Shown here in pieces: positions 1 through 28,090 of a stretch of DNA of 35,087 bases. Numbering within the stretch: position 1 is the stretch's first letter; the number at the start of each line of letters is the position of its first letter. The notes beneath the pieces are model-generated. The model was not told the DNA's origin, did not search any database, and was given only the letters and a program-made list of their open reading frames with translations. The position numbers and the translations under genes are program-made. The stretch lies in the NCBI GenBank assembly GCA_035268685.1, contig DATFKK010000031.1, positions 1 through 35,087 on the forward strand, given 5' to 3'. The stretch comes from Candidatus Krumholzibacteriia bacterium. Lineage in GTDB: Bacteria > Krumholzibacteriota > Krumholzibacteriia > JAJRXK01.

Positions 1-2789
1 GCCTGATCGGTGCCTCGTCCGTGGTCGACCCCGAGACGATCCCGTTGAGCCTGGTCGAGATCCTGCCCCTGACCAGCACGCCCGACGTGAGCGTGACGTC
101 GAGCGTGCAGGCGGTCTTCAGCCGCGCGGTCGATCGCAGCACGGTGACCGAGGCGAGCTTCGTCGTGCGCGACGTGACGAGCGGGGATCCCGTACCGGGC
201 TTCATCGGGTTCTCCGACGGCGACCGTCGCGTGTCGTTGATCCCGAGCGAGCCGCTGGCCTACGCCACCGACCACCAGGTCGAGGTGACGAACGCGATCA
301 CCGACCTCGACGGGCAAGTGCTCACCGATCCCGACACCGCCGCGTTCACCACCGCGGCCGCGGCGGCTCCCACGCTGGTGGGCCTGACGCCGCCGGCCGG
401 AACCGTCGGCGCGCAGATATCCATCGCCGGCACCGGATTCGATCCGGTTGCCGCGAACAACACGATCGACGTGAACGGTCGGGTGATCACGCCCACCGAC
501 GCCTCGATCAACTCGTTGCAGTTCGTGGTGCCGGGCGGGGCCACCACGGGACCTCTCACGGTCACCGTGGACGGCCAGCCCACGGCGTCGCTCGAGTTCA
601 CCGTGCTCCAACCCACCACCGTCCCGATCGACGAGATCGACGACACCGTGGATCTCGGGCAGGCGACGCAGTCGATGGCCGTCCTGCCCGACGGAACCCG
701 GGGCTACGCCGTGAGCACGGCGAACGACCAGGTCACGCCGATCGACCTCGTCGGCCTGCAGAACGGCACGCCGATCCCCGTGGGCGAAGAGCCCATCGGT
801 GCGGTGAGCGACGTGTCCGGCGCCTTCGTCTACGTGGCCAACCGCGGATCGAACGACGTCTCGGTCATCGAAACGGCCACCGACACCGTCGTCGACACCG
901 TTCCCCTCGACGACTCTCCCCAGGAGATCGTGGCCTCGCCCACCGGTGACCGCATCTACGTGGTCACGCCCGATGCGCAGGCGGTCGAGGTGATCGACGC
1001 CGACGTCACCAGTGCCGGCTACAACACCGTGGTCGCCCGCTTCGAGACCGGGCAGAGCACCAGCGGCGCGTCGATCTCGCCCGACGGCGGCGTGCTCTAC
1101 CTCGGAACCAGCAACGGTTTCCTCACCGTCGACCTCGGACCCACGGACTTCGGCGTGGTCGCCCGCTTCGAGACCGGACAGAGCACCAGCGGCGCGTCGA
1201 TCTCACCCGACGGCACCCTGCTGATCCTGCTCACCGAGAGCGACGAGGTTCTGCTCGTCGACGTCTCGGGCGCCGGTTTCGGAACCGTGGTCGCCCGCTT
1301 CGAGACGGGGCAGAGCACCAGTGGTGCGTCGATCTCGCCCGACGGCTCGGTGCTCTACGTGATCACCGAGGAGACCGACCTCGTCCTGGCCTACGCGATC
1401 GACGTCGCCGGCTCGGTGTCGGTGCTCGAGGGCCTGCCCGTGGTCGAGCTGAACCTGCTGCGGACCATCGACGCCGGCGACGATCCGCGGTGGATCGCCT
1501 TCGACCCGCGTGATCCGAGCGTGGCCTTCGTCGGCGCCACCGGCGACCTGGCGATCAACGTGTTCGGTCGCAGCGTCGACGGCGACTGCGAGACCTTCGA
1601 GGTGGTCTTCGGCGCCTCGTGGGACGGTGTTTCGTTGCAGGAGGTGCTCGACGCCGAGTACGGCGCCGGCGTGATCGACGCCGCGACCGACTACGAGGGC
1701 TACGCCTGTGGCGACGCCGTCGTGCCCTACTGGCTCGACGACTCCGTCGACGGCTGGGTGATCCGCGAGATCGCCGATGCCGCCGGTCGCAACATCCTGG
1801 GCTGGTACGCCGAGGACTTCACGCCGCCGGTGATCGACGGTGTCGACGACGGCGTGATCTTCGACGGCCCGGCGGGCGAGGGCGGCACGACCTTCGTCGG
1901 CCTCGATGGCCCGACCCGCTTCGGGCTGTACATGAACCCGAACGGCACCGAGGACGCCATCAACGCCCCCGAACCCGAGCTGTTCTTCACCAACCGCGCG
2001 TACAACGACGTCGGCCCCGACGGCAGCGGTGCCGTGCACGCGCCCGACGGCGGCGACCCGCAGGCGCTGATCTACGACATCACGTCGCTGCGGGGTGGCG
2101 TACCGACCTACGTGATCGCCTGGGAGGACATCGACTCGGGCGCCGAGATCACCCCCACCTACCAGGTCGGCAGGACCGACAACGACTTCAACGACCTGGT
2201 CGTCGAGATCCAGGCCAGCTCGCCCGTGCGGGCGGTGTCGAGTTCGATCGACCTGTCGGCCCGCGACGACGGGATCGGCCTGGCGTGGACGGTGACCGGT
2301 GCGGCGCGCATCGACCGTCTGGTCGTCGAGCGTCGCACCGACGACGGCCACTTCGTGGAGGTCGACACCGTCGACGCACCGTCGGCACACGGTGAGTGGG
2401 TCGACACCTCGGTCCTGCGGGCCGGCACCTACGCCTACCGCGTGGGCGTCGAGCTCGGCGAGTACCGGGTGGAGAGTGATGCGGTCGAGATCGCCTTCAC
2501 CCCCACCGTCCGCGAGACGCGTCTGGTGAAGGCCTGGCCGAACCCCTTCAACCCGCAGACCACGATCGAGTACGCGCTGTCGCAGCCCGGTCGGGTGCAA
2601 TTGAAGATCTACGACCTGGCCGGCCGTCTGGTGCGCTCGATGGACCTCGGCCACCAGCCCGTCGGAACCGGCCGCGTCCAATGGAACGGCACCGACGACC
2701 GCGACCGGGTCGTGTCGAGCGGGACCTATCTGGTGCGAATGGTCACGCCGTCGAAGACCGACGTCCTGCGCGTGATGTTGCTGAAGTAG
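1..2789 (+). CDS. Secreted Big_5/IPT/beta-propeller/DUF4114 protein with FlgD-like C-terminal sorting domain (5' end outside window)
   Basis: The frame is open to the left window edge. The first in-window start is a GTG at 21, but codons before it continue without a stop, so the N-terminus and signal peptide are probably missing. Numbering from the GTG, I see an Ig-like Big_5 domain (about 13-111), an IPT/TIG domain (about 115-195), a YVTN-type beta-propeller (about 205-520), a DUF4114-like domain (about 640-740, with DNDFNDLVVEI) and an FlgD/type IX-like C-terminal domain (about 835-922, with PNPFNPQTTIEY and a final VMLLK). Families of this build are exported surface or adhesin-like proteins; no catalytic site is visible. 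Inside the propeller a 20-residue block starting VVARFETGQ recurs identically three times. A perfect hairpin follows the stop. Family assignment is firm; the biological role is unknown. Confidence 0.85.
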   Translation, partial: LIGASSVVDPETIPLSLVEILPLTSTPDVSVTSSVQAVFSRAVDRSTVTEASFVVRDVTSGDPVPGFIGFSDGDRRVSLIPSEPLAYATDHQVEVTNAITDLDGQVLTDPDTAAFTTAAAAAPTLVGLTPPAGTVGAQISIAGTGFDPVAANNTIDVNGRVITPTDASINSLQFVVPGGATTGPLTVTVDGQPTASLEFTVLQPTTVPIDEIDDTVDLGQATQSMAVLPDGTRGYAVSTANDQVTPIDLVGLQNGTPIPVGEEPIGAVSDVSGAFVYVANRGSNDVSVIETATDTVVDTVPLDDSPQEIVASPTGDRIYVVTPDAQAVEVIDADVTSAGYNTVVARFETGQSTSGASISPDGGVLYLGTSNGFLTVDLGPTDFGVVARFETGQSTSGASISPDGTLLILLTESDEVLLVDVSGAGFGTVVARFETGQSTSGASISPDGSVLYVITEETDLVLAYAIDVAGSVSVLEGLPVVELNLLRTIDAGDDPRWIAFDPRDPSVAFVGATGDLAINVFGRSVDGDCETFEVVFGASWDGVSLQEVLDAEYGAGVIDAATDYEGYACGDAVVPYWLDDSVDGWVIREIADAAGRNILGWYAEDFTPPVIDGVDDGVIFDGPAGEGGTTFVGLDGPTRFGLYMNPNGTEDAINAPEPELFFTNRAYNDVGPDGSGAVHAPDGGDPQALIYDITSLRGGVPTYVIAWEDIDSGAEITPTYQVGRTDNDFNDLVVEIQASSPVRAVSSSIDLSARDDGIGLAWTVTGAARIDRLVVERRTDDGHFVEVDTVDAPSAHGEWVDTSVLRAGTYAYRVGVELGEYRVESDAVEIAFTPTVRETRLVKAWPNPFNPQTTIEYALSQPGRVQLKIYDLAGRLVRSMDLGHQPVGTGRVQWNGTDDRDRVVSSGTYLVRMVTPSKTDVLRVMLLK
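1029..1346 (+). repeat. Three near-identical 60-bp repeats inside the propeller gene
   Basis: Copies lie at 1029-1088, 1155-1214 and 1287-1346, with periods of 126 and 132 bp. Copies 1 and 2 differ at two bases and copies 1 and 3 at about three. All encode the same 20 residues (VVARFETGQ...ISPDG). The linkers between them have diverged. Confidence 0.9.
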
Positions 2790-2814
2790 CGGCTTCCCCT
2801 GGTGCGCGCATCGC

Positions 2815-2847
2815 GAGGCCGGCCCCTCTTCCCTCGGGGCCGGCCTC
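2815..2847. terminator. Bidirectional hairpin terminator between convergent genes
   Basis: A perfect 12-bp stem (GAGGCCGGCCCC at 2815-2826 with GGGGCCGGCCTC at 2836-2847) closes a 9-nt loop. It sits between the stop of the surface protein and the stop of the convergent dehydratase. The tail is only weakly T-rich, so either Rho-independent strength is modest or it works mainly as a roadblock. Confidence 0.75.
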
Positions 2848-2854
2848 GTTCGTC

Positions 2855-3814
2855 TCAGCGCGCGAGGAGTTCGTAGGCGCGGGCAGGATCGACGTTGCCA
2901 CCGCTCAAGACCACGGCGACACGACGCAGCGAGGTCTCGGCGCGGAACTCGTCGCCCAGCGCCGCGGCCAGCGACACCGCTCCACTCGGTTCGACCACGA
3001 GCTTCGCCCGCTCGAACAGCGCGCGCATCGAGCCGACAATCTCGTCCTCGGACACCCGCAGCACCGCCTCGACGTGGTCGCGCAGCACCGGCCAGGTCAG
3101 GTCGCCCAGGCTGGTCCGCAGGCCGTCGGCGATCGTGCGGGGGTCGGTCATGGGCACGCGCTCGCCCCGCTGCTTGCTGCGCCAGGCGTCGTCGGCGCCG
3201 GCCGGTTCGGCCGCGAACATGCGTACGTGCGGGGCGGCCTGGCGCAGGGCCAGCGTGATCCCGGCCAGCAATCCACCACCGCCCACGGGAGCGATGACCG
3301 CGTCGAGGTCCTCGATCTGGTCGAGCAGTTCGAGGGCCACCGTGCCCTGCCCCGCGATCACGTCCGGGTGGTCGAAGGGCGGGATCAGGGTGGCGCCCGT
3401 CTCCTCCATGACCCGCCGGGCGCCCTCCTCGCGGGCGGCGAGCGTGGGCTCGCAGGGATGGATCGTCGCCCCGTAACCCTCCGTGGCCGCCCGCTTCACC
3501 ACCGGGGCGTTCGTCGGCATGACCACGTAGCAGGCGATCCCGCGGGTGCGCGCCGCCCGGGCCAGCGCCTGGGCGTGGTTGCCGGAACTGTGTGTGACCA
3601 CGCCGCGCGCCGCCTGCTCGTCGTCGAGCCGCAGGACCGCGTTCGTGGCCCCCCGGATCTTGAAGGCCCCGACCCGCTGCAGGTTCTCGCACTTGAGCCC
3701 GACCGCGCGCTCGGCGCAGGCGTCGATGGCAGCACACGTCATCACCGGCGTCCGATGGACGTGCGGAGCGATGCGCCGGTGGGCGGCGCGGATGGTGGCG
3801 AGGTCGACCGGCAT
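2855..3814 (-). CDS. PLP-dependent threonine/serine dehydratase
   Basis: The 319-residue protein is a fold-type II PLP enzyme of the threonine dehydratase/serine racemase family, expected to convert L-threonine (or serine) to a 2-oxoacid and ammonia in the cytoplasm. The PLP lysine is K52 in GAFKIRGA. The cofactor loops SSGNHAQ (76-82) and GGGGL (178-182) are intact, and LSGGN lies near the C-terminus. There is no C-terminal ACT regulatory domain, so it resembles the short catabolic or serine-racemase-like form (about 320 residues) rather than biosynthetic IlvA (about 500). The ATG at 3814 is preceded by GAAGGA seven bases upstream. It is divergent from the glucan operon and convergent with the preceding surface protein. 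Threonine dehydratase, serine dehydratase and serine racemase cannot be separated by eye. Confidence 0.9.
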   Translation of the reverse strand: MPVDLATIRAAHRRIAPHVHRTPVMTCAAIDACAERAVGLKCENLQRVGAFKIRGATNAVLRLDDEQAARGVVTHSSGNHAQALARAARTRGIACYVVMPTNAPVVKRAATEGYGATIHPCEPTLAAREEGARRVMEETGATLIPPFDHPDVIAGQGTVALELLDQIEDLDAVIAPVGGGGLLAGITLALRQAAPHVRMFAAEPAGADDAWRSKQRGERVPMTDPRTIADGLRTSLGDLTWPVLRDHVEAVLRVSEDEIVGSMRALFERAKLVVEPSGAVSLAAALGDEFRAETSLRRVAVVLSGGNVDPARAYELLAR

Positions 3815-3865
3815 CCGAAATCCTTCCGTGAACGGCCTCTTCAGGATACGTTCACCTGCGTCCGC

Positions 3866-3914
3866 TTGACAGGACGGCGCCCGGGGATCATAGTTTGTTC
3901 AGTTGCCGAACAAA
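3866..3914 (+). promoter_or_regulatory. Sigma70-type promoter with overlapping operator (site A) for the lipoprotein-ROK-GH16 operon
   Basis: TTGACA (3866-3871), a 17-bp spacer and CATAGT (3889-3894) make a good -35/-10 pair. The operator TTTGTTCAG-TTG-CCGAACAAA covers 3894-3914, from the end of the -10 across the likely transcription start. Its outer arms TTTGTTC and GAACAAA are perfect complements. This placement suits a repressor that blocks initiation. It drives the operon that also encodes the ROK regulator, which suggests negative autoregulation. Confidence 0.75.
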
Positions 3915-3968
3915 GGCCGCCCGAGGCTCCGGACGGCCCGCCCTCGCTGCCCGGGACGGATGATCTCG

Positions 3969-5420
3969 ATGCGTGCCGCTCTCCGTGTCTTCGCCGCCGG
4001 ATTCGCCCTGTCGATCGCTCTGACCGGCTGCGACCGCGACGACTCCGACTACCGCCCGCTCGAACTGTCGACCGATCCGATCGTCTTCGAGGACGAGTTC
4101 GGGCCGACCATCTTCGAGCCCTTCCTCACGGCGAGGCAGGATGCCGTGACCCTTGCCGACGTCGTGACCTTCGGCGACTCCGAAGGTGCGATCCGGATCG
4201 AGGTCGATCCTCTGTCGGTCGGCCCCTTCTCGGGCGGCGCCTTCACCGTGCCCGTTGCCCGGGACCTGTCCGGATACAACGCGCTGCGTCTGCAGATCCG
4301 GGCCAGCGCGAACGTGAGCCTCGACCTGATCGGCTTCGGCGAGGGCAACACGGGCACCTCGCTCTACACGGCGAGCACCGAGAACGTCGCCGTGACCACC
4401 CAGTGGACCGAGCTGATCCTTCCCGTGCCCCGTCCGTCGCGCCTGCGCGCCATCCGCGGCATGATGTTCTTCAGCGACGTCGCGGCGGGCAGCGATCCGG
4501 CCGAGGGCTACGTGCTGTGGATCGACCAGGTCGAATGGATCACCGCCGGCGGTCTGTCCGTCGTCGGTGCGCAGATCGACAGCAAGAACCTCCAGGCCGT
4601 CTTCGGTGCGACCGTTCCCATCGGCGAGGGCCGCGTGACCTTCGACGTCGACGGCACGACACGCTCCATGACGACGGCCCCGGACTACTTCGACTACTTC
4701 GACGCCGCCGACGGTGACGGTTCCGTCGTGGAGTTCCGACGCGGCCGGCCCGTCGTGGTCGGCGGTGGCGAGGCCCGGATCCGCGGGCAACTCGGCGACG
4801 TCGAGGCCACCGGCGTGATCCAGGTGACCGGTGTCGCCCCGCCCGTCGATCCGGCTCCCACGCCGAACTTTCCCCCGGCCGACGTGATCTCGCTGTTCAG
4901 TGATTCCTACGACGACATCACCGTCGACACCTTCCGCGCCGAGTTCGGCGCCGGGACACTGTTCGAACTCTCCCGCGACGGCAACGCGGTGAAGGCCTAC
5001 ACCGGTCTCGGGACCAACCTGCAACGCGAGGTCGCAATCGAGTTCGTCGGCGAACAGGTCGACGCCACGGGGTTCACCGGGCTGCGCCTCGACGTGTGGC
5101 TCCCCGATGCCGCGCCGGAGGGCGATCGTCCCTTGATCGGCCTCAAGCTCATCGACTTCGGCCCCGACGGCGAGTTCACGCCCTTCGAGGACCCCGACCG
5201 CGACGACAGCCAGGGCTTCCTGGGCCTGGGGCTCGAGGGCTCGGGGACCGAGATCACGCCCGGTGAATGGGTCACGCTCGAAATCCCCCTGACCGACTTC
5301 GAGCAGTCCCCGCCTTCGATCGGCGGTGCACTGCAGTCGCGCGCGAACCTGGCGCAGATGCTGCTGAGCGTGAACACGGGCTACCTGTTCGTCGACAACA
5401 TCCTCTTCTTCCGGAACTGA
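3969..5420 (+). CDS. Glycan-binding surface lipoprotein with carbohydrate-binding modules
   Basis: The 483-residue lipoprotein starts MRAALRVF and has a lipobox LTGC (C21). I prefer the ATG at 3969 because GGACGGA ends eight bases upstream; an ATG at 3960 in the same frame is possible but leaves no ribosome-binding space. After the signal there is a galactose-binding-like beta-sandwich (about 30-200), an Ig-like middle part, and from about residue 306 a second sandwich beginning VISLFSDSYDD and ending YLFVDNILFF. That last module resembles the C-terminal domains attached to GH16 laminarinases in Bacteroidetes. No glycosidase motif is present, so the likely role is binding beta-glucan at the cell surface, comparable to a surface glycan-binding protein. 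It is first in an operon with a ROK regulator and a GH16 enzyme, behind operator site A. The exact CBM family is unproven. Confidence 0.75.
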   Translation: MRAALRVFAAGFALSIALTGCDRDDSDYRPLELSTDPIVFEDEFGPTIFEPFLTARQDAVTLADVVTFGDSEGAIRIEVDPLSVGPFSGGAFTVPVARDLSGYNALRLQIRASANVSLDLIGFGEGNTGTSLYTASTENVAVTTQWTELILPVPRPSRLRAIRGMMFFSDVAAGSDPAEGYVLWIDQVEWITAGGLSVVGAQIDSKNLQAVFGATVPIGEGRVTFDVDGTTRSMTTAPDYFDYFDAADGDGSVVEFRRGRPVVVGGGEARIRGQLGDVEATGVIQVTGVAPPVDPAPTPNFPPADVISLFSDSYDDITVDTFRAEFGAGTLFELSRDGNAVKAYTGLGTNLQREVAIEFVGEQVDATGFTGLRLDVWLPDAAPEGDRPLIGLKLIDFGPDGEFTPFEDPDRDDSQGFLGLGLEGSGTEITPGEWVTLEIPLTDFEQSPPSIGGALQSRANLAQMLLSVNTGYLFVDNILFFRN

Positions 5421-19547: not shown

Positions 19548-19889
19548 TCAGCCCATGGCCTGGTCGTAGACATCCTCGTCGAAGCCCACCAGCAGCGTCT
19601 TGCCGACCTTGATCGTCGGCGCGCGCAGGTTGCCGGTGCTGCCGAGCATCTTCTCGACGATCTCCTTCTTCGCGGTGCCGCCGTCGAAGGTGTCGAGCTT
19701 CTTGCCCTTGGCCACGTGGATCTTCGAGGCGTCGCGGATCAGCTTCTTCGCGTCGTTCTCGCCGAGCTTCTTGCTGGCCGAGACCTTCTCCGCGACGTCC
19801 ACGCCCTTCGCCTCCATGAACTTGGAGGCCTTCGCGCACGAGCTTCAACCGGGACGGTGGTAGTACCAGTCGACACGGGACTTCGTCAT
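19548..19889 (-). CDS. ArsC/Spx-like thioredoxin-fold selenoprotein with in-frame TGA (Sec15)
   Basis: Reading through a TGA at 19847-19845 gives 113 residues, beginning MTKSRVDWYYHRPG-U-SSCAKASKF. The ATG at 19889 has GGAAGGA seven bases upstream, which is a far better start than the internal ATG at 19817. Residues 15-18 form a UxxC redox motif exactly where ArsC-like thioredoxin-fold proteins have CxxC. The downstream sequence keeps the fold, including the cis-proline region NLRAPTIKVGKTLLVGF. A hairpin fitting a bacterial SECIS lies 15 nt after the TGA. The family is known to have Cys and Sec forms; the likely role is thiol/selenol redox chemistry or reductase activity, substrate unknown. 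No selA, selB, selC or selD is in the window. An ordinary premature stop is the alternative. Confidence 0.85.
19810..19829 (-). promoter_or_regulatory. Putative bacterial SECIS hairpin
   Basis: On the minus strand GCCTCCA (19829-19823) and TGGAGGC (19816-19810) form a perfect 7-bp stem with the hexaloop AGTTCA, which exposes a GU. The stem begins 15 nt and the loop 22 nt after the TGA, within the spacing known for bacterial SECIS elements. The internal ATG at 19817 lies inside this hairpin. Confidence 0.75.
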
Positions 19890-19992
19890 GATCGTTCCTT
19901 CCGGGAATCGGACAGGGGTTCGTGAACGCCCGCAGTCTAGACCAACGCTGCACGGCGGGCCACCGCGGTCCGGTGTGCGCTCCCCGCTCCGT

Positions 19993-25289: not shown

Positions 25290-25347
25290 TCTTCTGTCTT
25301 CGACCGGTGTCTTCGTGCACGCACAGGTCTTCGGTGACGACGAGCGA

Positions 25348-25375
25348 CGGCCCGGGTCTCGGAGACCCCGGGCCG
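25348..25375 (-). terminator. Hairpin terminator for the oxyR-side transcript
   Basis: CGGCCCGGGTC pairs with GACCCCGGGCCG with one bulged C around a TCGGA loop. It lies about 110 bp past the stop of the small minus-strand ORF. The rest of 25290-25484 shows no gene or other signal. Confidence 0.5.
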
Positions 25376-25484
25376 CCGCGAACCGCAATCCCACCCGGTG
25401 AACGACTGAAGGAGGAGACTGCGGCCGAATCGATGCGTTCTGTCCTGACAACGCGCTCCGCGGGGCGGGAGTTCCCGGGCGTCC

Positions 25485-25724
25485 TCAGTTCCGGTTCGAA
25501 ACCGCGTTGCTCCCCCGCTCCACCGTGCCCAGCTCGGGGTTCTCGTCCTGGGCCGTCTCGCGGCAGACGTCGTCGATCAGCTGCTCGCGGTTCTCGCGGA
25601 ACCAGGACTCGAGTTCGCACGCCAGCTGGCAGAACTCGCGCGGCGAGAGCCGCAGCGACCAGTCGGGCGTCTCGATCTCGTAGCTGGGCACGTCGTGCGG
25701 TCCACGGTCGTGGCGCTGGAGCAT
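25485..25724 (-). CDS. Small hypothetical protein downstream of oxyR
   Basis: The 79-residue product starts MLQRHDRGPHDVPSYEIETPDWSL (seen in part). The ATG at 25724 has GGGAGG six bases upstream, which favours it over longer readings of the frame. The middle part (SPREFCQLACELESWFRENREQLIDDVCRE) is predicted helical and holds three cysteines; no membrane segment or known domain is visible. It lies 113 bp after oxyR on the same strand and may be co-transcribed. Function is unknown. Confidence 0.55.
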   Translation of the reverse strand: MLQRHDRGPHDVPSYEIETPDWSLRLSPREFCQLACELESWFRENREQLIDDVCRETAQDENPELGTVERGSNAVSNRN

Positions 25725-25837
25725 GGCGGGCCTCCCGGATTCGAGGAACGGCGATCTCCCGGAGGGGGTCTTCGCCCCCGACACCGCCGAACTTGAATTT
25801 CAGTATCAAACAATCCCGGGAGAAATCAAGGCCGGAA

Positions 25838-26791
25838 TCACGAATTCGGCGTGACCGGCACTCGTTCGCCCTCCACCAGCTCCACCAGGACGCGACCGAG
25901 CTCTCGGTACTCCGGCGCCCGGCTCGAGGCCTTGCGCCAGGCCAGGCCGATCTCGCGGTACGGCGTCGGCTCGGTGAAGGGAATCACGCGCACTCCACCG
26001 GCTCGGCCCTCGACGTCCAGTGCCATCTTCGGCAGCAGTGTCGTCCCCAGGCCCCCGGCGACCATCTGCGTCAGCGTCCCCAGGCTGGTGGCCCGCATCC
26101 GCGAGGCCTCGCGTGCACCGGCGTGATTGCAGATGGCCAGGGCCTGGTCGCGCAGGCAATGGCCGTCTTCGAGCAGAAGGACCTCCTGATCGACCAGATC
26201 CGAATCCTGCACACGGGAGCGGCCGGCCAGCGGGTGACGGGCCGGCACCGCGAGACGGAACTCGTCGCGGAACAGGGGCAGCGCCTCGACCTCGCCCGGC
26301 AGCGGCAGTGCGAGCAACAGCACGTCGAGCTCGCCCTCGTTCAGGCGCTGGAGAAGGACGTGGGTGAACTCCTCGCGCAGGAACAGCTCGAGCCGCGGGA
26401 AGCGATCGCGCAGCCCGGGCAGGACCCGTGGCAGCAGGTACGGAGCGACGGTCGGGATCACGCCCAGGCGCAGCAGGCCGGCCAGGGGCTCGCGCGCCGC
26501 CCGTGCGGTGTCGGACAGGCCGTCGGCCTCGGCGAGCACGCGCCGGGCCTGGGCGACGACCTCCCGTCCCACCGGCGTCAGCAGGACCTTCCGGGCCGCG
26601 CGCTCGAAGAGCTGCACGCCCAGGGTCTCCTCGAGCGCCTGGACCTGGGTCGACAGAGCCGGCTGGGTCACATGACACGCCTCCGCCGCACGGCGGAAGT
26701 GCAGGTGCTCGGCCACCGCGACGGCGTACTCGAGCTGGCGGATGGTGGGCCGGGTGCGGGGTCGGGTGCCGTTGCCGGGAGCCTTCTCCAT
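25838..26791 (-). CDS. oxyR: OxyR-type LysR-family hydrogen peroxide regulator
   Basis: The 317-residue protein has an N-terminal LysR winged helix-turn-helix (about 17-75: TIRQLEYAVAVAEHLHFRRAA) and a substrate-binding-like regulatory domain. The redox motif EDGHCLRDQALAIC contains C212 and C221, spaced like C199 and C208 of E. coli OxyR, so peroxide sensing by a disulfide is strongly suggested. The ATG at 26791 has CGGAG nine bases upstream; an in-frame ATG at 26851 is less likely because it adds a non-conserved N-terminus. It is divergent from ahpC-ahpD, the classical arrangement for local control by OxyR. Confidence 0.92.
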   Translation of the reverse strand: MEKAPGNGTRPRTRPTIRQLEYAVAVAEHLHFRRAAEACHVTQPALSTQVQALEETLGVQLFERAARKVLLTPVGREVVAQARRVLAEADGLSDTARAAREPLAGLLRLGVIPTVAPYLLPRVLPGLRDRFPRLELFLREEFTHVLLQRLNEGELDVLLLALPLPGEVEALPLFRDEFRLAVPARHPLAGRSRVQDSDLVDQEVLLLEDGHCLRDQALAICNHAGAREASRMRATSLGTLTQMVAGGLGTTLLPKMALDVEGRAGGVRVIPFTEPTPYREIGLAWRKASSRAPEYRELGRVLVELVEGERVPVTPNS

Positions 26792-26978
26792 GGTGCGATC
26801 TCCGAGGGGGTGCAGGCCCGCGGCCCCTCGATGAGCGGGGGCTTCGGTCACCCCATGTTATCGCAAAGCCAAGATCAATCAATTGGAATGTTCGTTCGAA
26901 CGGCCTTTTCTTGCAGCGCGTCCGGGGACGGAGCGGTCCCCGCATCAGTTCCCGAACCCGACCGAGGAGAGTTCGACC
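26792..26978. promoter_or_regulatory. Divergent oxyR/ahpC control region
   Basis: This 187-bp region is locally AT-richer around 26855-26900 and probably holds both promoters and the OxyR site. On the minus strand TTGATT, 16 bp, TAACAT is a possible oxyR promoter. A perfect 10-bp palindrome CGTTCGAACG lies at 26893-26902. I could not place a full OxyR consensus (ATAG-type tandem quarter-sites). Confidence 0.5.
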
Positions 26979-27521
26979 ATGCTGACCGTCGGAGACAGGC
27001 TCCCGCAGTTCTCCCTGACCGCGACCGTCGACAACGACAAGCCCTCGACGGCCTTCGCCGAGGTCGACAACGACACCTACCGGGGAAAGTGGAAGGTGAT
27101 CTTCGCCTGGCCGAAGGACTTCACCTTCGTCTGCCCCACCGAGATCGCCGCCTTCGGCAAGCTGAATCGCGAATTCGCCGACCGCGACTGCCAGATCCTG
27201 GGCATGTCGACCGACAGCGAGTTCGTCCACTTCGCCTGGCGCAACGACCACGACGACCTGAAGGACCTGCCCTTCCCCATGCTGGCCGACGTGAAGCGCG
27301 ACTTCAGCGAGGCCCTGGGCATCCTCGACCGGAACGAGGGCGTGTGCCTGCGGGCGACCTTCATCGTCGACCCCGACGACACGATCCAGCACGTGTCGGT
27401 GAACGGCCTCGACGTCGGCCGCAACCCCGACGAGACCCTGCGCATCCTCGACGCCCTGCAGACCGACGAGCTGTGCCCCTGCAACTGGCAGAAGGGCGAG
27501 GAGACCCTCGTCGTCGGCTGA
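26979..27521 (+). CDS. ahpC: AhpC-type peroxiredoxin
   Basis: The 180-residue protein is an AhpC/TSA peroxiredoxin that reduces hydrogen peroxide and organic peroxides. The peroxidatic cysteine is C52 in DFTFVCPTEI. The C-terminal ELCPCNWQKGE (C166, C168) resembles the double resolving cysteines of mycobacterial AhpC, which works with AhpD instead of AhpF. The ATG at 26979 has GAGGAGA eight bases upstream. ahpD follows after 35 bp, and oxyR is divergent upstream, so peroxide-induced expression is likely. Confidence 0.95.
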   Translation: MLTVGDRLPQFSLTATVDNDKPSTAFAEVDNDTYRGKWKVIFAWPKDFTFVCPTEIAAFGKLNREFADRDCQILGMSTDSEFVHFAWRNDHDDLKDLPFPMLADVKRDFSEALGILDRNEGVCLRATFIVDPDDTIQHVSVNGLDVGRNPDETLRILDALQTDELCPCNWQKGEETLVVG

Positions 27522-27556
27522 CGACGCTCGCACCGACGAGAGAAAGGAAGATCGCC

Positions 27557-28090
27557 ATGGAATGGGTGAGAGAACAGTTGCCCGAGGCCGCCCGCGACAT
27601 CCGCCTGAACCTGGGCACGGTGTTCAACAGCCAGAACCTGAGCGAGCGTCAGGTCTACGGCACGCTGGTGGCCTGCGCTTTCGCCGCCCGCAACGCCGAG
27701 CTGCTGGCCGCCGCGGAGGAGGAGGTCCAGGGCAAACTGACCGACGAGGACCTGGCCCTGGCCAAGTCGATCGCGGCGACCATGGGCATGAACAACGTCT
27801 ACTACCGCTTCCTGCACCTGGTGGAGGATCCGGAGTACGCGCAGATCCCCGCGCGGCTGCGGATGCAGGCCCTGAGCGCCCCGGCCGAGGACAAGCTCGA
27901 CCGCGAGCTGTGGGCGCTGGCGGTGAGTGCGGTGAACGGCTGCGGTCAGTGCATCCAGGCCCACGAGAAAACCGTGCTGCAGCACGGCGCCTCGAAGGCC
28001 ATGGTCCACGACGCGGTGCGGATCGCGTCGGTGGTGAACGCCGCCGCCGCGGCCCTCGACGCCGAGCCCTCCGGCGCCAACGTGGGTTGA
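27557..28090 (+). CDS. ahpD: AhpD-type alkylhydroperoxidase/reductant of AhpC
   Basis: The 177-residue protein matches AhpD. It has the CxxC site NGCGQCIQAHE (C129, C132) with H136, and E117 upstream in the EDKLDRELW helix, all placed as in the mycobacterial enzyme. It reduces AhpC, itself recharged through lipoylated partners in the known system. The ATG at 27557 has AAAGGAAG upstream. It forms an operon with ahpC and ends before a hairpin terminator. Confidence 0.95.
   Translation: MEWVREQLPEAARDIRLNLGTVFNSQNLSERQVYGTLVACAFAARNAELLAAAEEEVQGKLTDEDLALAKSIAATMGMNNVYYRFLHLVEDPEYAQIPARLRMQALSAPAEDKLDRELWALAVSAVNGCGQCIQAHEKTVLQHGASKAMVHDAVRIASVVNAAAAALDAEPSGANVG

Follow-up and report, generated by a model that had tools for sequence, protein, structure and literature searches.

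The window analysed here, a stretch of 35,087 nucleotides, contains on its minus strand a gene (19551–19889) for an ArsC-family selenoprotein of 113 residues with selenocysteine (Sec) at residue 15, recognised by matches to the models NF041106 and PF03960 and by alignment with 28 relatives. The start codon is the ATG at 19889 (minus strand), which is preceded by AAGGAACGATC; a Shine-Dalgarno-like AAGGAA, read directly from the sequence, lies 6 nt upstream (19896–19901, minus strand), in agreement with the ribosome-binding site proposed in a preliminary description of this DNA, and purine-rich sites resembling it precede the starts of most relatives. The Sec-encoding UGA is codon 15 (19845–19847, minus strand), which had been described as taking the place of the first redox Cys, and indeed it aligns with the Cys of the solved relatives SACOL0876 and Spx. 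Cys18, the second redox residue in UxxC, is encoded at 19836–19838 (minus strand). A further TGA (19548–19550, minus strand) terminates the gene and is identical to the Sec codon, but without a reported SECIS hairpin behind it, while the genes of 62 relatives end in TAG (36), TGA (17) or TAA (9).

A plain ORF listing yields just an 89-residue stump from the ATG at 19817. The practical consequence, that standard callers truncate the gene to this stump, therefore holds for plain ORF callers, but a caller equipped with the NF041106 model, which already covers the family, need not lose the gene. If the TGA is translated as a residue, the product matches the entire profile (1–107 of 107) of NCBIfam NF041106 ("ArsC family (seleno)protein") with 118.6 bits, where the curated cut-off is a whole-protein score of 85 bits, and Pfam ArsC (PF03960) with 27.8 bits against a cut-off of 24. 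The GC content at the three codon positions is 0.54/0.40/0.95 for the gene in full and 0.56/0.38/0.98 for the part beyond the UGA, the third-position values of 0.95 and 0.98 being as expected for coding sequence in a GC-rich genome. The full-length match and the high third-position GC after the UGA bear out the view that coding sequence of the same family flanks the TGA.

The genome to which the window belongs (4.59 Mb in 202 contigs, 99.33% complete) contains all the Sec machinery for which a search had been advised, namely selA (466.2 bits, cut-off 267.9), selB (335.7 bits, cut-off 242.25), selD (324.9 bits, cut-off 125) and a tRNA-Sec of 74.2 bits with the anticodon TCA (UCA in the RNA). 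Judged by this gene content, the organism should be able to insert Sec. The selD gene (L010, contig C87, 1501–2433, minus strand) has an in-frame TGA of its own at the motif AAGUAAKL, and selenophosphate synthetase is thus itself a selenoprotein in this genome. Reassignment of UGA throughout the genome, to Trp or Gly for instance, would account for an in-frame UGA that is read through with no Sec insertion, but it is contradicted by the UGA stops of the sulfatase and sodium:solute symporter genes, both confidently identified in the window, and of the selenoprotein gene itself, from which it follows that the code is not reassigned, as well as by the presence of tRNA-Sec (anticodon TCA) and selA, selB and selD, and we reject it as extremely improbable.

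The in-frame TGA is widely conserved. A protein search of 193 related genomes gave matches in 24, every match containing an in-frame TGA and one containing two. Members scoring above the NF041106 cut-off occur in 19 of 80 genomes of the window's phylum, in 4 of 5 of a second phylum and in 35 of 95 of a third; exactly one in-frame TGA is present in each of these 58 members, in the same column in those that were translated, and a Cys form at the Sec position was found in none of the 58 across the 180 genomes. When 62 relatives were extracted and translated, all 62 had the in-frame TGA and none had any other internal stop. If the TGA were a nonsense mutation, or a miscalled TGC or TGT, only the 89-residue stump or nothing would be made, and ordinary ORF calling does find the stump alone. 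This reading is contradicted by the UGA common to 62 relatives from several phyla, by the lack of Cys among the 58 members, and by the absence of the scattered stops that had been named as the mark of a pseudogene. It is further opposed by a dN lower than dS against each of four relatives, by the high third-position GC on either side of the TGA and by the full Sec machinery of the genome, so that we reject a pseudogene or sequencing error as highly improbable.

Possession of the gene goes together with Sec machinery in other genomes also. Of the 23 other matching genomes, 22 have selB above its cut-off (the exception being G034) and 22 have tRNA-Sec above its cut-off (the exception being G007), with one or the other present in all 23. 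The distribution of the gene itself is patchy, and a genome of the same genus (G001) has tRNA-Sec and selB without it.

Downstream of the UGA lies a putative bacterial SECIS (bSECIS) hairpin (19810–19829, minus strand), for which the preliminary description gave a 7-bp stem and a GU-containing hexaloop 15 nt downstream. Its coordinates are confirmed and the structure is conserved in the 62 relatives: in the window a perfect 7-bp stem, with arms at 19829–19823 and 19816–19810, begins 15 nt past the UGA and closes a 6-nt loop, AGUUCA (19822–19817). The apical-loop GU (19820–19821, minus strand) occupies positions +26 and +27 from the T of the UGA, where G26 is found in 62 of 62 relatives and U27 in 59, the other three having G. 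The rules for bacterial SECIS elements, as quoted in PMC13188914, are an upper stem of 4–16 bp, a loop of 3–9 nt with G in the first two loop positions, 16–37 nt between UGA and loop, and a minimum free energy (MFE) of at most −7.5 kcal/mol. The window hairpin accords with these, with 7 bp, a 6-nt loop with GU at positions 2 and 3, a UGA-to-loop distance of 22 nt, and an MFE of −13.1 kcal/mol over the 32 nt around the hairpin.

Taken alone, the single hairpin of the window is just mildly unusual and not significant, with a z of −1.77 against dinucleotide shuffles (11 of 200 fold equally well) and p ~0.10 against synonymous-codon shuffles. Across the 62 relatives, conservation of the hairpin exceeds amino-acid constraint, far beyond chance. 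The mean stem is 7.2 bp, compared with 2.9 bp (sd 0.14) for synonymous-codon shuffles, and for 18 representatives less than 65% identical it is 7.22 bp compared with 2.85 (sd 0.32), the highest of 5000 samples reaching 4.28. All 62 have the loop G, against 30.8 expected from codon usage, a count made less independent by kinship. Two registers of the hairpin occur, one with the 6-nt loop in the window and its close relatives, and one with a loop of 3 nt and a one-base shift in most others. Two-sided pair changes amount to 22 cells in 4 pairs in one register, with a covariation score matched by none of 500 shuffles, and to 4 cells in 2 pairs in the other, where 1 of 500 shuffles scored as high.

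We consider it close to certain that this is a true selenoprotein gene, encoding Sec and belonging to family NF041106, and we infer the insertion of Sec itself. The preliminary description is correct in both observation and interpretation, having survived each of the two refuting conditions that it set. A UGA spotted by eye in raw sequence can therefore be a real Sec codon. In the mechanism we propose, the stem-loop beginning 15 nt past UGA codon 15 would direct SelB to deliver Sec-tRNA(Sec) to the ribosome at this codon, after which the remainder of the protein would be read through.

The selenoprotein family is known already, and the window gene is an ordinary further member. Mention of ArsC-like selenoproteins goes back to 2006 (PMC1794560), and a 2026 review (PMC13188914) lists NF041106 as 'Arsenate reductase-like protein' with the motif UxxC, crediting the family to its ref. 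61, the 2008 selenoproteome paper on the Global Ocean Sampling metagenome (PMC2398784). In that paper 42 Sec forms were assigned to 'Arsenate reductase 2' (cd03032, UxxC), and 238 Cys homologues were counted under the broad domain cd03032. 'Arsenate reductase 2' is, like the window protein, an ArsC-like thioredoxin-fold protein with UxxC, but it has Cys homologues in PMC2398784, whereas NF041106 has no Cys form in the 180 genomes covered here; the two groups are equated by the review's citation and not by alignment. The window protein resembles NF041106 (ArsC_rel_Se_1) in its full-length match, Sec position and UxxC, and codon 15 shares an alignment column with the Sec of 28 relatives. It has no feature that distinguishes it from the family, and adds one more lineage to a sparsely described group. 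Its nearest named relative, at 60% identity, comes from a Thermoanaerobaculales MAG (L044). The Uxx-star glutaredoxin-like (seleno)proteins (NF041212) are also small thioredoxin-fold selenoproteins in which the second Cys may be absent, but the window protein matches that model just partially and weakly (19.3 bits against a cut-off of 66, residues 10–35).

An AlphaFold2 model of the protein has a thioredoxin-like fold (pLDDT 91.6, pTM 0.83). The top structural match is YffB (1rw1; Z 9.1, 2.5 Å over 85 residues), followed by Spx (3ihq and 3gfk; Z 8.8 and 8.7) and an ArsC-related protein (3gkx; Z 8.6), all tied within 1 Z, while Spx ranks first in Foldseek and is the nearest solved sequence by profile (2.9e-9). 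Sec15 corresponds to the first redox Cys in SACOL0876 and in Spx. With Spx and YffB (TIGR01617; PDB 3gfk, 6ghb, 1rw1) the window protein has in common the fold, the redox Cys/Sec position and an L-R-(x)-P near the C-terminus; it differs from them in having Sec for Cys, in a TIGR01617 score under the cut-off and in an identity of 18–27%. Among 29 aligned sequences W8, Y10, R12, G14, Sec15, G62, G83, G86, L88, R89, A90, P91, G96 and G102 are invariant. The UxxC motif of the preliminary description is correct for the window protein, in which Cys18 is present, but does not extend to the whole family, since this residue is Cys in only 56 of the 62 relatives, Ser in 5 and Ala in 1; the constant feature is therefore the selenocysteine and not UxxC. 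The UxxS and UxxA forms (L029, L030 with Ala, L031, L032, L033 and L036) are relatives of the same class.

Spx is the nearest solved relative in profile comparison and has one of the most similar folds, which raises the question of an Spx-like regulator that would bind the C-terminal domain of the RNA polymerase alpha subunit and sense redox state through Sec. We regard this as quite unlikely, for the score against the Spx/arsC_related (Spx/MgsR family) model TIGR01617 is 33.4 bits, far under its cut-off of 75.05, identity to the Spx structures is 24–27%, and YffB, which is not known to be a transcription factor, is an equally good match (Z 9.1). The label "ArsC-like" given at the outset is upheld as a family assignment by NF041106 and PF03960, but is not evidence for arsenate reduction, the nearest relatives by sequence and fold being Spx and YffB. 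Detoxification of arsenate by a selenocysteine-containing arsenate reductase would be consistent with the 27.8-bit PF03960 match and with the name arsenate reductase(-like) used in PMC13188914 and PMC2398784. The arsenate reductase model TIGR00014 is absent from the NCBIfam matches at E ≤ 0.01, where TIGR01617 does appear (below its cut-off, as above), the closest solved sequences are those of Spx, and neither the Pfam-annotated neighbours nor the ORFs scanned in the window included a recognisable arsenic gene. With TIGR00014 unmatched and no arsenic gene among the annotated neighbours, the ArsC name is not to be taken as the function, and an arsenate reductase seems unlikely.

In the window the neighbours of the selenoprotein gene are a GH16 hydrolase and a sulfatase. 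We found no partner common across phyla; the neighbours are lineage-specific and indicate no substrate. In L044, nitric oxide reductase-like and hemerythrin-like genes (1854–4103 and 617–1222) apparently lie upstream of the relative's gene, judged by eye from the translations, and such genes were not seen beside the window's gene. Elsewhere in the window, a 927-residue frame (25307–28090, plus strand) matches PF02627, carboxymuconolactone decarboxylase (AhpD-like), in its C-terminal 80 residues, while its long upstream portion has no Pfam match and may be non-coding.

The most likely function is a selenol-based redox exchange, which we predict because the fold is Spx/YffB-like, Sec15 is invariant and Cys18 is variable; we have little confidence in any particular substrate. 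The product would belong to the Spx/YffB/ArsC-like superfamily, as a small protein with the thioredoxin fold in which Sec15 occupies the N-terminal end of helix 1. Sec15 would attack an oxidised substrate in a thiol/selenol exchange, and resolution of the resulting adduct may fall to Cys18 in the proteins that have it and, in those with Ser or Ala instead, to an external thiol (glutathione, glutaredoxin or thioredoxin). Loss of the second redox Cys in 6 of 62 relatives means that a dithiol mechanism cannot be general. A more specific proposal takes Sec to be obligatory (no Cys in 58 members) and the resolving Cys to be dispensable (replaced by Ser or Ala in 6 of 62), which would fit a single-selenol function impossible for a Cys version, such as that of a glutathione-coupled reductase or a metal or metalloid ligand as opposed to a dithiol arsenate reductase; we offer this tentatively, as a possibility on the doubtful side. 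The family pattern, with Sec always present and the second Cys optional, renders the mechanism testable.

The searches also returned about 30 weaker matches, scoring 30–51 bits and below the NF041106 cut-off, among them L043:1471–1812. Most have one in-frame TGA, and this more distant, ArsC-related set looks like a separate group of ArsC-like selenoproteins. In one further genome (G249:C502:29489–29808) the family match falls into two pieces that overlap and lie in different frames, which suggests a frameshifted or mis-assembled copy.
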